Shown here: in pieces, positions 2,585 through 47,753 of the stretch
How positions within the stretch are numbered: the stretch's first letter is position 1
Layout: every line of letters begins with the position of its first letter
Assembly: GCA_016873845.1 (NCBI GenBank)
Contig: VGVX01000011.1
Span: forward strand, 1 to 47,753
Reading direction: 5' to 3'
Length of the DNA stretch: 47,753 nucleotides
Source of the DNA: Ignavibacteria bacterium
GTDB taxonomy: Bacteria; Bacteroidota; Ignavibacteria; Ch128b
The notes under the pieces: model-generated
Told to the model about the DNA's origin: nothing
Databases searched by the model: none
The model's input: the letters and a program-made list of their open reading frames with translations, nothing else
Position numbers and translations under genes: made by a program

Positions 2585-3904
2585 TTGGATAAACAAAACA
2601 TTTATATAGAAACCTATGGCTGCCAGATGAATTTGGCAGATACCGAAATCGTTCAAGGTGTGCTGAATTCAACAGGATACAAGTTCACGAATGATATTTC
2701 GCAAGCTGATGTTGTGCTTGTGAATACTTGCGCAATCCGTGAGCATGCTGAAGAAAGAATTTACGGCAGACTTGGCGAATTCAGGCATCAAAAAAAGGAA
2801 AACCCGAATTTAATTGTTGGAGTTCTTGGCTGCATGGCAGAACGTCTGCGTAAACAATTAATAGAGGAAGAAAAGGTTGTTGACCTGATCGTTGGTCCGG
2901 ATGAATATCGGCGAGTTCCAGAGCTCATTGAAAATGCTTTCGTAGGTGAAAAAGGAATTGCAGTTAGGTTAAGTAAGACAGAAACTTACGACGACATCAT
3001 CCCTTACCGTGAAGAAGGAATTTCTGCATGGATTTCGGTAATGCGCGGCTGTGATAAGTTTTGCACATTCTGTGTTGTGCCATTCACTCGCGGCAGAGAA
3101 AGAAGCCGCTCACTTGAAAGTATTGTTGAAGAAGTCCGCCTGCTAAGTGAAAGAGGTTTTAAAGAAATTAATCTTCTTGGCCAAAATGTAAATTCATATC
3201 AAGATGATAGTTTTGATTTTGCAGATCTACTTTACGCTGTAAGTAAAGTCGATAAACAAATGCGTGTTAGGTTTACTACGTCACATCCGCAGGATTTTTC
3301 GGATAAACTTGTTCGGACGATTGCTGAGAATGAAAACATCTGCAATTACATTCATCTTCCCGTTCAGTCCGGTTCGAATCGAATTTTACAATTGATGAAC
3401 AGAACCTACACAGTTAAGCATTTTCTCAAACTTGTGGAGAAAGCAAGAATTGAAATTCCAAGCGTAAGCTTTTCAACTGATATCATAACTGGATTTCCAA
3501 CAGAGACCGATGATGATCATCAGATGACAATGGATTTGATGAAAGAAGTCCAATTCGATGGAGCTTTCATGTTCAAATATTCAGCAAGAGAAAACACAAA
3601 GGCATGGAATTTAGGCGATGATGTTGCCGAAGAAATAAAAAGTATAAGATTGAGAGAAATAATCGAACAGCAGCAAAAGATTTCGTATGAGATAAATCAA
3701 ACTCTGATTGGAAAAACTTTTGAAATTCTAATCGAAGATTTAAGTAAGAAGTCGGAAGATTTCTACATGGGCAGAACTGACACAAACAAAATTGTTATCG
3801 TGCCAAAAGGGGATTTACGAATCGGAGATTACTGTCTCGTAAAAATTGAAAGAGCAAACTCAGCAACCTTATTTACTTCTGATGGGATTAAAATCGAAAA
3901 GTGA
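2585..3904 (+). CDS. miaB: tRNA-2-methylthio-N6-dimethylallyladenosine synthase
   Basis: A radical-SAM methylthiotransferase that adds a methylthio group to i6A37 in tRNAs reading UNN codons. The 439 residues match the usual length. The N-terminal MTTase domain carries three cluster cysteines (C13 in YGCQMN, C49 in NTCAIR, C83 in LGCMAE). The radical-SAM cluster motif is C156-x3-C160-x2-C163 (RGCDKFCTFC), and a C-terminal TRAM-like region follows. YGCQMN and FTRGRERSR separate MiaB from RimO, whose gene is also present at 14166. Translation starts at a TTG with only a weak upstream TGAG. No gene touches it on the 5' side. Confidence 0.95.
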   Translation: MDKQNIYIETYGCQMNLADTEIVQGVLNSTGYKFTNDISQADVVLVNTCAIREHAEERIYGRLGEFRHQKKENPNLIVGVLGCMAERLRKQLIEEEKVVDLIVGPDEYRRVPELIENAFVGEKGIAVRLSKTETYDDIIPYREEGISAWISVMRGCDKFCTFCVVPFTRGRERSRSLESIVEEVRLLSERGFKEINLLGQNVNSYQDDSFDFADLLYAVSKVDKQMRVRFTTSHPQDFSDKLVRTIAENENICNYIHLPVQSGSNRILQLMNRTYTVKHFLKLVEKARIEIPSVSFSTDIITGFPTETDDDHQMTMDLMKEVQFDGAFMFKYSARENTKAWNLGDDVAEEIKSIRLREIIEQQQKISYEINQTLIGKTFEILIEDLSKKSEDFYMGRTDTNKIVIVPKGDLRIGDYCLVKIERANSATLFTSDGIKIEK

Positions 3905-4823: not shown

Positions 4824-5924
4824 ATGAATCATCAAGAGTTTCAAGATAAATTTGGATTATTCTATCGCTCGCAGTTGATGCGTGAAGTCGTTGAAGTCAT
4901 CCAGCAAGTATCTGCGACTGACATAACAGTGCTCATTCAAGGGGAGAGTGGAACGGGCAAAGAGTTAGTGGCAAAGGCGATTCACGGACTAAGTAAAAGA
5001 TCATCCAATAAATTATTGAGTGTAAACTGTGGAGCGATTCCAGAAGGCATCATAGAAAGTGAATTGTTTGGACATCAAAAAGGAGCTTTCACTGGTGCTA
5101 TCGAATCAAGAAAAGGATATTTCGAACTTGCAGACGAGGGAAGCTTATTTTTAGATGAAATTGGTGAATTGCCAACTTCGGTGCAAGTTAAATTTCTTCG
5201 TGTGTTAGAGACAAAAGAAATTTTGCGTATCGGTGCAGAAACAGTCTCGAAGGTCGATGTCAGATTCATAACTGCAACAAATAAAGATTTGAATTTTGAA
5301 GTTTCGAAGAAAAAATTTCGTGAGGATTTATTTTACAGGCTACGAAGTGTAATGATCGAAATTCCTCCACTCAGAAAAAGAAAAGAAGATATACCTCTTC
5401 TTGCAAACAAATTTCTTGCTGATTTTTGCATGCGAAATAAAATTGAACAGATTCGAATTGATGATCAAGCATACGATTTCTTAATAGAGTATCATTGGCC
5501 TGGAAACGTTCGAGAGCTAAAAAATGCAATTGAGTCTGCTTCTGCTCTTAATAAAACCGGAATTTTGAAATCCGAAGATTTTGGAAAAAACTTTGTTGTA
5601 TCGTTAAACGAAATGCCTCATCGAAATCTTCCTATCCATTTAAACAAATCTGCCGATGAAGCAGAACGTGGATTGATCTTAAGTGCACTAATAGAAATAA
5701 AAAAAGATCTTGTCGATCTGAAAAATGCAATTATTAATGACGGAAATGAAGTACAGTCGCAAAATAATCCGGTTTCTATTAAAGAAGTTCAGAAAGAAGC
5801 GATTAAGAATGCATTGATCAAAACTCACTACAACAAGAAAAAAGCTGCTTCTATGCTGAATATCAGTTTGAGAACTTTGTATCGCAAAATTAAAGAATAT
5901 GGATTAAGTTTGAGAGAAGATTAA
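4824..5924 (+). CDS. Sigma-54 AAA+ transcriptional activator without sensor domain
   Basis: An enhancer-binding protein for sigma-54 RNA polymerase, 366 residues. The AAA+ domain starts almost at the N-terminus. Walker A is GESGTGKE (40-47), the sigma-54 contact loop is GAFTGA (87-92), and LFLDEIGELP is the Walker B region. DVRFITATNKDL and ERFYRL-like DLFYRLRS follow. A Fis-type helix-turn-helix occupies about 325-362 (KKAASMLNISLRTLYRKIKEYGL). No receiver, GAF or PAS domain precedes the ATPase, so control must come from partner proteins or expression level. An odd 60-residue charged segment (about 275-330) joins ATPase and HTH. The stop is 4 bp before lptE, so the two are probably cotranscribed. 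Confidence 0.9.
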   Translation: MNHQEFQDKFGLFYRSQLMREVVEVIQQVSATDITVLIQGESGTGKELVAKAIHGLSKRSSNKLLSVNCGAIPEGIIESELFGHQKGAFTGAIESRKGYFELADEGSLFLDEIGELPTSVQVKFLRVLETKEILRIGAETVSKVDVRFITATNKDLNFEVSKKKFREDLFYRLRSVMIEIPPLRKRKEDIPLLANKFLADFCMRNKIEQIRIDDQAYDFLIEYHWPGNVRELKNAIESASALNKTGILKSEDFGKNFVVSLNEMPHRNLPIHLNKSADEAERGLILSALIEIKKDLVDLKNAIINDGNEVQSQNNPVSIKEVQKEAIKNALIKTHYNKKKAASMLNISLRTLYRKIKEYGLSLRED

Positions 5925-46185: not shown

Positions 46186-46223
46186 TTATTTGCTGTCACC
46201 GACCGGTCGGTGACAGCAAATAA
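46186..46223. repeat. Perfect 38-bp palindrome
   Basis: The left half is TTATTTGCTGTCACCGACC (46186-46204) and the right half is its exact reverse complement (46205-46223), with no spacer. It lies 12 bases after the ATP-cone kinase stop and at the broken end of the orphan Rhs fragment, whose last codons and stop fall inside it. T residues precede it on the plus strand, but none follow on either strand, so it does not look like a normal terminator. It may be a recombination site or the end of a mobile element. Confidence 0.8.
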
Positions 46224-46501
46224 CTGGTTTCGATATCACGTTCCTTTTCTGTGAATTTGTATTTTTCGTTTATAGCTCCGTATTCAAAGTTTTGCATTAT
46301 TTCGCCGTAAGGATAGTAATCCTGTGCGTTTCTTACATTTCCTAATTTATCTACAGTTATTCTTATACTTCCTAAATGGTCTTTTATGTAGTATAAACTT
46401 GAATAAGTGAAGAATGGTCTTTCAGGTAAATCATCCCAATAGAATTTCACCCTTCCAATAAGTCCAAGTCCAAGTAAATTTAACATTTGTTTTCTGTCAA
46501 A
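46196..46501 (-). pseudogene. Orphan Rhs core fragment
   Basis: An open frame of about 100 codons, not a full gene. From an early segment (MLNLLGLGLIGR) through YIKDHLGSIRITVDKLGNV and QDYYPYGEIM it encodes the Rhs repeat-associated core. Bases 46236-46408 are identical to 47465-47637 in the larger Rhs gene. It breaks off after KERDIETSY and runs into the palindrome at 46186, ending with LLSPTGR. Upstream the frame closes at a TGA (46502-46504). It lacks a toxin tip and is probably a displaced copy, possibly used as a recombination template. Confidence 0.8.
46236..46408. repeat. 173-bp direct repeat, copy 1 (Rhs core)
   Basis: Identical base for base to 47465-47637 in the same orientation. 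Outside it the two copies drop sharply in similarity, with protein homology kept on one side only. It encodes the Rhs core segment from YSSLYY to KERD. Confidence 0.92.
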
Positions 46502-46549: not shown

Positions 46550-46828
46550 TCAGTGTCTTCTCTTATATAATTTAATAATTAAGAAAAACACGTAATAAAA
46601 AATAAAATTTAAAATTAAATAAACATAGTCTGGAGTATTATGCATAGCATCCCATGTGGGATTAAAAATTAGTCTTAGGATAATTCCTGGTAATAAAATA
46701 AATCTCGTTATTTCTTCTATTGTAGAAGTAGGTAAAATATAAATTACAATTACAATTAAAAGCCAAAATGGTAAAGCTAAAACAAGGGTCTCTAACATAA
46801 CTTTGATAAATGTACGAGGAGACATCAT
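46550..46828 (-). CDS. Small membrane protein, putative immunity protein
   Basis: A 92-residue protein with three likely membrane helices: VMLETLVLALPFWLLIVIVIYI, EITRFILLPGIILRLIF and VYLILNFIFYYVFFLIIKLY. It starts in a four-base ATGA overlap with the Rhs toxin stop codon (46825-46828), the usual arrangement of a polymorphic toxin and its immunity gene. A membrane immunity protein fits a toxin that attacks membrane lipids. Very AT-rich. No homology is recognised; the role is inferred from position. Confidence 0.65.
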   Translation of the reverse strand: MMSPRTFIKVMLETLVLALPFWLLIVIVIYILPTSTIEEITRFILLPGIILRLIFNPTWDAMHNTPDYVYLILNFIFYYVFFLIIKLYKRRH

Positions 46829-47753
46829 TTCTCGCCTTTTAGCTCAATTGAAGTTTTGTAGAAATCCCTGAGCAATCGAACAGTTAAATCAAATCTTTCA
46901 TCGTTTATTTTAAATTCTCTTATTATATGAACACCCGCTTTAAGAAGCGTTAAAAAATTAAATTCTTTTGGTGGGAAAAAGAAATTTTCATCCCATTGTT
47001 GAAATCCTTCGTGTGACGGTGAAGTAATATCCATGATAGGATGTAATGCTTCGCCAAGTGAAAACAATGCAGCATCTCCTTTACCCTCAATAAACTCCTG
47101 TCTTTTAATATTTATATATTCATACATCCTATTTCTTGCTACCTCAACGGTTTCTCCTTTTTCTCTCATAGCATGCTTGAATTGTCCAATACTGCTTTGG
47201 TCTTCATCAACAAATTTACTTGCTTGTTGTAGTATAATAATTTCTCTTGACGTTAAAATATCCTTAAATGCTTCATATAAAATTTTATTATGAATTTTCT
47301 CCGGCCATTTACCATCTGGATCAAAATATCTTAACGGATTATTAAATGAATAATTATACGGACTCCACCCCCAATACTTCTCACTCAACGGGTCAACTTG
47401 TAACCACTTTTCAAGTTCGCTGTCATAGTAGCGTGCTTTAAAATAATCATAACCAGTTTCTGTGTCACGTTCCTTTTCTGTGAATTTGTATTTTTCGTTT
47501 ATAGCTCCGTATTCAAAGTTTTGCATTATTTCGCCGTAAGGATAGTAATCCTGTGCGTTTCTTACATTTCCTAATTTATCTACAGTTATTCTTATACTTC
47601 CTAAATGGTCTTTTATGTAGTATAAACTTGAATAAGTTACTACCGGCTGCATAGACTCTGGCAGCTCATCATGGTAAACGTTTATTCGTCCTATTAATCC
47701 GTTTCCAAACAGGTTTAGCATTTTTAGTTTGTTTGTGTTCATATCGTAGACTG
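46825..47753 (-). CDS. Rhs protein, 3' part, with zinc-phospholipase-C-like toxin tip
   Basis: Partial: the frame stays open to the window edge, so the ATG at 47742 is probably internal. Numbering from that ATG (305 residues), residues about 38-144 are the Rhs core end (YIKDHLGSIRITVDKLGNV, YDYFKARYYDSELEKWLQVDP), closing with NNPLRYFDPDGK like PxxxxDPxG junctions. Residues 145-305 are the tip domain. H234-x3-D238-x5-H244 (ALHPIMDITSPSH) has the exact spacing of three zinc ligands in Bacillus cereus phospholipase C (H118, D122, H128). An HxxxE follows at H272-E276, as in H142/E146. D179 or D181 and H190 may supply others. The likely product is a contact-delivered toxin of the zinc PLC/P1-nuclease fold. 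Confidence 0.75.
   Translation of the reverse strand, partial: VYDMNTNKLKMLNLFGNGLIGRINVYHDELPESMQPVVTYSSLYYIKDHLGSIRITVDKLGNVRNAQDYYPYGEIMQNFEYGAINEKYKFTEKERDTETGYDYFKARYYDSELEKWLQVDPLSEKYWGWSPYNYSFNNPLRYFDPDGKWPEKIHNKILYEAFKDILTSREIIILQQASKFVDEDQSSIGQFKHAMREKGETVEVARNRMYEYINIKRQEFIEGKGDAALFSLGEALHPIMDITSPSHEGFQQWDENFFFPPKEFNFLTLLKAGVHIIREFKINDERFDLTVRLLRDFYKTSIELKGEK
47465..47637. repeat. 173-bp direct repeat, copy 2 (Rhs core)
   Basis: Same sequence as 46236-46408, here within the larger Rhs gene, offset by exactly 1229 bases. Such identical segments let Rhs genes swap tips by homologous recombination. Confidence 0.92.

Follow-up and report, generated by a model that had tools for sequence, protein, structure and literature searches.

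What kind of toxin is carried at the tip of the Rhs protein at the end of contig VGVX01000011.1 of an Ignavibacteria bacterium (assembly GCA_016873845.1), and how would its producer be kept safe from it? The window, that is, the whole stretch of 47,753 nucleotides (nt) analysed here, is the entire contig (C11 of a 162-contig, 2.98-Mb genome). Its minus-strand open reading frame (ORF) 47742..46825 encodes 305 amino acids (aa), and Rhs_assc_core TIGR03696 covers residues 66-144 of this ORF (E 2.1e-17; 63.4 bits, cut-off 32.5). The core closes with PLRYFDPDGK, ending at residue 145, and the tip comprises residues 145-305. The protein has the organisation of the Rhs polymorphic toxins, with an Rhs-associated core directly upstream of a variable tip and a DPxG cleavage motif (DPDGK, residues 141-145) at the junction; DPLSE occupies the first motif position. 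The 161-residue length of the tip given by the original prediction is what we find on the 305-aa ORF when K145 is counted. We consider it probable that this tip is a zinc phosphodiesterase of the phospholipase C (PLC) and S1/P1 nuclease superfamily, most likely a PLC, which would be armed by the Rhs cut and against which the product of a neighbouring gene would protect the producer. The features concerned are the following.

46825..47742, minus strand: 3' part of a gene for an Rhs protein, 305 aa when read from an internal ATG (TIGR03696 match; frame continuing to 47753, where the contig ends)
46828..47310, minus strand: tip domain, predicted zinc PLC/P1-like hydrolase toxin (alignment, PDB profile search, model, Foldseek)
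47308..47322, minus strand: DPDGK, predicted Rhs autocleavage motif, cut expected after K145 (sequence; analogy to Photorhabdus laumondii Rhs1)
47305..47307, minus strand: W146, W1 of the predicted released toxin, putative N-terminal zinc ligand (invariant in 6/6 tips)
47290..47292, minus strand: H151 (H6), putative zinc ligand (invariant; W1-H6 spacing as in S1/P1-like proteins)
47206..47208, minus strand: D179, putative zinc ligand or general base, counterpart of PLC D55 (invariant; role in PLC from PMC10576769)
47173..47175, minus strand: H190, putative zinc ligand (invariant)
47011..47043, minus strand: H234-x3-D238-x5-H244, putative zinc ligands (invariant; aligned by HMMER with LGxxxHxxxDxxxPxH of PLC chains)
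46915..46929, minus strand: H272-x3-E276, putative zinc ligands (invariant)

Relatives of the tip were found in a Melioribacteraceae metagenome-assembled genome (MAG; L002/L004, 46% identity), in one Nitrospirae MAG (L005) and in two Marinilabiliales MAGs (L006, with two tips, and L007), each of them being the end of an Rhs protein, while no relatives were present in the viral contigs, plasmids or phages searched. The family alignment is shallow, consisting of six tips at 25-46% identity, and has 16 invariant columns (W2, H7, L19, D35, Q38, H46, M48, L85, G86, A88, H90, D94, H100, W106, H128 and E132, K145 being column 1; in the numbering of the predicted released toxin W146 is W1). Among these columns is the complete PLC/P1 ligand series, with all nine expected residues (W1, H6, D, H, HxxxDx5H and HxxxE), and the W1-H-D-H-HxxxDx5H-Hxxx[ED] set by which membership of the zinc PLC/P1 nuclease superfamily was judged is found in 6/6 tips. 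H234, D238, H244, H272 and E276, which the original prediction had read as HxxxDx5H plus HxxxE, stand exactly at those positions and are all invariant; D179, D181 and H190, which it had also listed, are in place as well, however, D181 is not invariant whereas D179 and H190 are. Two further invariant ligand-like residues were missing from that list, H151 and W146, the latter being the first residue after DPDGK. The window tip contains exactly five histidines, each at a putative ligand position, and the same holds for the tips of L004, L005 and L007 and the second tip of L006, which have five histidines, all in the ligand series (5/6 tips with the window). When the tip composition was shuffled 200,000 times, HxxxDx5H by itself occurred in 0.7%, HxxxDx5H with a later HxxxE/D in 0.14%, and both with an upstream D and H in 0.05%, while adding W1xxxxH6 to the full motif set left 0 of 200,000. 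Conservation across the family is a stronger test of the ligand motif than shuffling.

Comparison of the tip to known structures points to the same superfamily. With only the tip as query, phmmer returned a phospholipase C as top match in the PDB (E 0.062), aligned through HxxxDx5H, and 6/6 sequences matched by the family profile in the PDB are phospholipases C (best E 0.0015). The AlphaFold model of the window tip has seven helices (predicted local distance difference test, pLDDT, 87.5; predicted template modelling score, pTM, 0.82), and a Foldseek search with this model among 350,542 chains placed PLC/alpha-toxin structures at all of ranks 1-8 (best E 0.14) and S1 nuclease at ranks 10, 11 and 13 (prob 0.77). 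With a second model, that of a 37%-identical L006 tip, ranks 1-4 were all alpha-toxin (E 0.33). Two relatives matched Pfam Zn_dep_PLPC (PF00882) below threshold (E 0.0037 and 0.065), L005 reaching 17.7 bits against a cut-off of 26.8. The matches being individually weak, the fold assignment draws its weight from the fact that sequence, fold and ligands agree. The proposal of a lipase or nuclease that depends on zinc and has the PLC/P1 fold is supported by the PDB profile, the two models, the sub-threshold Zn_dep_PLPC matches and the invariant ligands.

The position of W146 links the putative zinc site to the Rhs cleavage. The C-terminal cleavage of P. laumondii Rhs1 takes place at the second of its DPLGL motifs, directly behind the fifth residue: L1342 is the last residue of the shell, the toxin begins at A1343, and D1338 is the catalytic residue of this cleavage (PMC8636562). 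By the Rhs1 rule, the window protein is expected to be cut between K145 and W146. Tryptophan is the first residue after the predicted cut (P1') in 6/6 tips, following DPDGK, DPDGM, DPNGK, DPNGM or EPGGR, whereas among 44 other same-class Rhs junctions (picked automatically, with a few probable mispicks) it occupies this place in 1, and two further W junctions (L070 and L076) were detected by another script; from these counts the background of W at P1' is a few per cent. One of those two, L070 (DPTGKWDITVH), starts with W-x4-H and was not counted as a family member: its frame stops after 18 residues. In S1 nuclease, the main chain of the N-terminal Trp binds zinc (PMC5201275), and in the Listeria enzyme LmPC-PLC a single extra residue before W1 abolishes activity (PMC10576769). 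Since W1 stands at P1' of the DPxGx junction and PLC needs an N-terminal Trp, we propose a toxin that is armed by its carrier's own cut. Same-class S1/P1-like proteins have W1-H6 directly after their predicted signal peptides, with a spacing identical to that of the window tip. The genome of the window itself carries such an S1/P1-like secreted enzyme (L041, G000:C56:6617-6937), which has W1 and H6 after a predicted signal peptide and lies below the Pfam cut-off.

We propose the following mechanism. A compact (~160 aa), all-helical, zinc-dependent phosphodiesterase tip would be carried inside the Rhs cage. The Rhs autoprotease would cut after DPDGK, W146 would become the new N-terminus, and its free amino group and carbonyl would complete the zinc site together with H151, D179, H190, H234, D238, H244, H272 and E276. 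The single cut would both free the toxin and switch it on by creating the last zinc ligand, and if the release cut also activates, the producer would come to no harm from the uncut Rhs protein. The phospholipase C activity of the released tip would then most likely attack the membrane of the target cell, while a small membrane protein encoded by the overlapping neighbour gene would protect the producer. We infer zinc binding, cleavage in the window protein, activation by cleavage, the lipid substrate and the immunity function from the evidence given here. To the more specific proposal that the Rhs autoprotease builds the catalytic metal site by providing its N-terminal Trp ligand, release being activation, in an undescribed family of PLC-like Rhs tips, we give an even chance.

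Several observations weigh against this reading. The Foldseek E-values are weak (0.14-0.33) and the TM-scores low (0.37-0.44; TMq 0.33-0.45), even for top-ranked matches. The window tip itself had no PF00882 match in the Pfam scan, and the hhalign comparisons with the same-class S1/P1 and PLC sets, in which the profiles were shallow, were not significant (E 0.046 and 0.13), although the S1/P1 comparison did align the HxxxDx5H segment. The spacing of W1 and H6 in the tip is S1/P1-like, unlike B. cereus PLC, which has H14 where the tip has H6. Autocleavage at the DPDG[KM] junctions is predicted by analogy. Finally, the Rhs gene is cut by the contig end: the reading frame stays open up to position 47753, where the contig stops, therefore the 5' part of the gene is missing, and the window copy may be an orphan cassette.

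The weak fold matches, the lack of any significant match to a curated family and the truncation of the gene would also suit a tip that is not a metal hydrolase at all, being another helical toxin or a decayed cassette with a coincidental motif. This we regard as highly improbable: the nine ligands are invariant across several lineages and other histidines are absent, and the reading frame is intact and is overlapped by a conserved neighbour gene. A comparison of the tip with zinc PLC and S1/P1 nuclease families had been suggested as a check; the PDB profile returned PLC only, and PF00882, PF02265 and hhalign gave no significant match for the window tip.

In a second alternative, the tip would be a zinc hydrolase of the PLC/P1 fold, its N-terminal Trp would have a purely structural role and no activation by cleavage would take place, the enzyme being constitutively active or its site completed otherwise. 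That cleavage at the junction is predicted by analogy for this Rhs class agrees with this view, as does the tip of L093, related in appearance, which has Tyr at P1', so that Trp itself may not be essential. We consider it improbable nonetheless, since W1 is invariant at P1' in six members of 25-46% identity, the same-class S1/P1-like proteins place W1-H6 right after the predicted signal peptides, and LmPC-PLC requires its N-terminal Trp (PMC10576769). The L093 tip (G407:C55:40620-41562, minus strand) begins after DPSGL with YEEPVHGALTYH...LGVGLHSLEDVGFANAPGPH, so that P1' is aromatic, and has H at +5 as well as HxxxD. It matches Pfam DUF6765 weakly (E 1.7e-5) and may form a second branch within this zinc-hydrolase theme.

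The predicted cleavage-armed phospholipase is accompanied by a candidate immunity gene, and a broken copy of the core end follows further downstream.

46550..46828, minus strand: predicted membrane protein of 92 aa with three segments, candidate for the immunity protein (hydropathy maxima at 14, 37 and 69; homologues after other tips)
46196..46486, minus strand: truncated duplicate of the end of the Rhs core, lacking a tip (97.4% identity with the tip-adjacent core across 189 nt)

The ATG of the 92-aa gene overlaps the stop codon of the toxin (ATGA), and homologues of its product stand directly after the tip in L002/L004 (37% identity, E 3e-13) and in L005 (24% identity, E 1e-5). Judged from its sequence and position, this overlapping membrane protein is likely to be the immunity protein. 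Behind the tips of L006 and L007, the place of this membrane protein is taken by a family of proteins that are exported or resemble lipoproteins (the two compared share 33% identity), and each of the two L006 tips precedes an exported protein of one family. The candidate immunity proteins, being membrane or exported/lipoprotein-like, would protect the envelope, as would be expected against a phospholipase more than against a cytoplasmic nuclease.

This bears on the third alternative, in which the tip belongs to the same superfamily and has the same cleavage-armed zinc site, however, is an S1/P1-type nuclease that degrades the DNA or RNA of the target. Nucleases are frequent among Rhs tips, the W1xxxxH6 spacing is identical to that of the same-class S1/P1-like proteins, the tip-family profile also found one such protein (L010, E 0.001), and the best fold matches include S1 nuclease. 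We hold it to be unlikely, yet the most serious of the alternatives, because the profile matches in the PDB are PLC only, the weak Pfam matches are all to Zn_dep_PLPC and none to S1-P1_nuclease (PF02265 matched neither the window tip nor the relatives scanned), and membrane or exported immunity proteins would be unexpected against a cytoplasmic nuclease.

With the zinc PLCs (PF00882; B. cereus PC-PLC, Listeria PlcB) the tip shares the ligand order W, H, D, H, HxxxDx5H, HxxxE, the all-helical structure, an alignable LGxA-H segment and the N-terminal Trp; it differs in length (~160 aa as opposed to ~245 aa), in being made as part of an Rhs protein and not as a secreted proenzyme, and in falling below the Pfam cut-off. 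With the S1/P1 nucleases (PF02265) it has in common the identical W1-H6 spacing, HxxxDx5H and the later HxxxD/E; in contrast, it lacks a PF02265 match, is shorter and stands behind an Rhs cage rather than a signal peptide. Among published proposals, Tox-HET-C comes closest, a domain of polymorphic toxins for which the fold and metal site of PLC/P1 have been predicted (Zhang et al. 2012; PMC3482391). Tox-HET-C, from polymorphic toxins related to PVC secretion, has the motif HxxxDxxxH (PMC3482391), whereas the tip has HxxxDx5H and no match to Pfam Het-C at E up to 10. As in the window protein, the Rhs core of P. laumondii Rhs1 and Pseudomonas protegens RhsA ends in DPxGx, a variable toxin comes next and a candidate immunity gene is adjacent, while Tre23 and the other known Rhs tips are enzymes unrelated to the window tip. 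The Rhs1 and RhsA literature consulted does not describe an active site that includes the N-terminus formed by the cut, unlike our proposal, and in the open-access literature searched we found no paper on a zinc PLC-like Rhs tip and none on an active-site residue created by an Rhs cut.

The window tip is not covered by any family in Pfam, NCBIfam or PADLOC, in agreement with its initial description as a type outside the common Rhs sets; the sole PHROG match falls mainly on the Rhs core, and a search of a viral fold library matched nothing. Weak Pfam matches to COX6A, DUF2070, Dna2 and DUF2378 were judged to be due to chance. We propose that the tip is a new family within the Rhs polymorphic toxins, working like the PLC/P1 superfamily, with a new activation step. 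Rhs self-cutting is only partly explained: toxicity needs cleavage, yet the fragments remain together. If our proposal is true, the Rhs cut gains a direct chemical role, the making of the enzyme's N-terminal zinc ligand, it becomes easy to explain why an enzyme that attacks membranes does no damage to the cell producing it, and a zinc phospholipase-type domain joins the catalogue of Rhs tips.

The broken core copy downstream of the candidate immunity gene is typical of Rhs cassette arrays, and the L004 locus likewise shows such an array. On one Marinilabiliales contig (L006), two diverged tips of the family stand in tandem (2973-3377 and 4995-5465). A further candidate relative, L003 (E 4.8e-4, 24% identity), was rejected, the long frames there being unrelated genes without an Rhs core, and was missed by the family profile. 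The genome has a single YD-repeat match; the ORF that contains it lies on contig C45 and is likewise cut off by the end of its contig. This open ORF of 1391 aa (L087, G000:C45 15000-22849) has a signal-peptide-like start, reaches the contig end and is possibly the front part of the rhs gene of the window.
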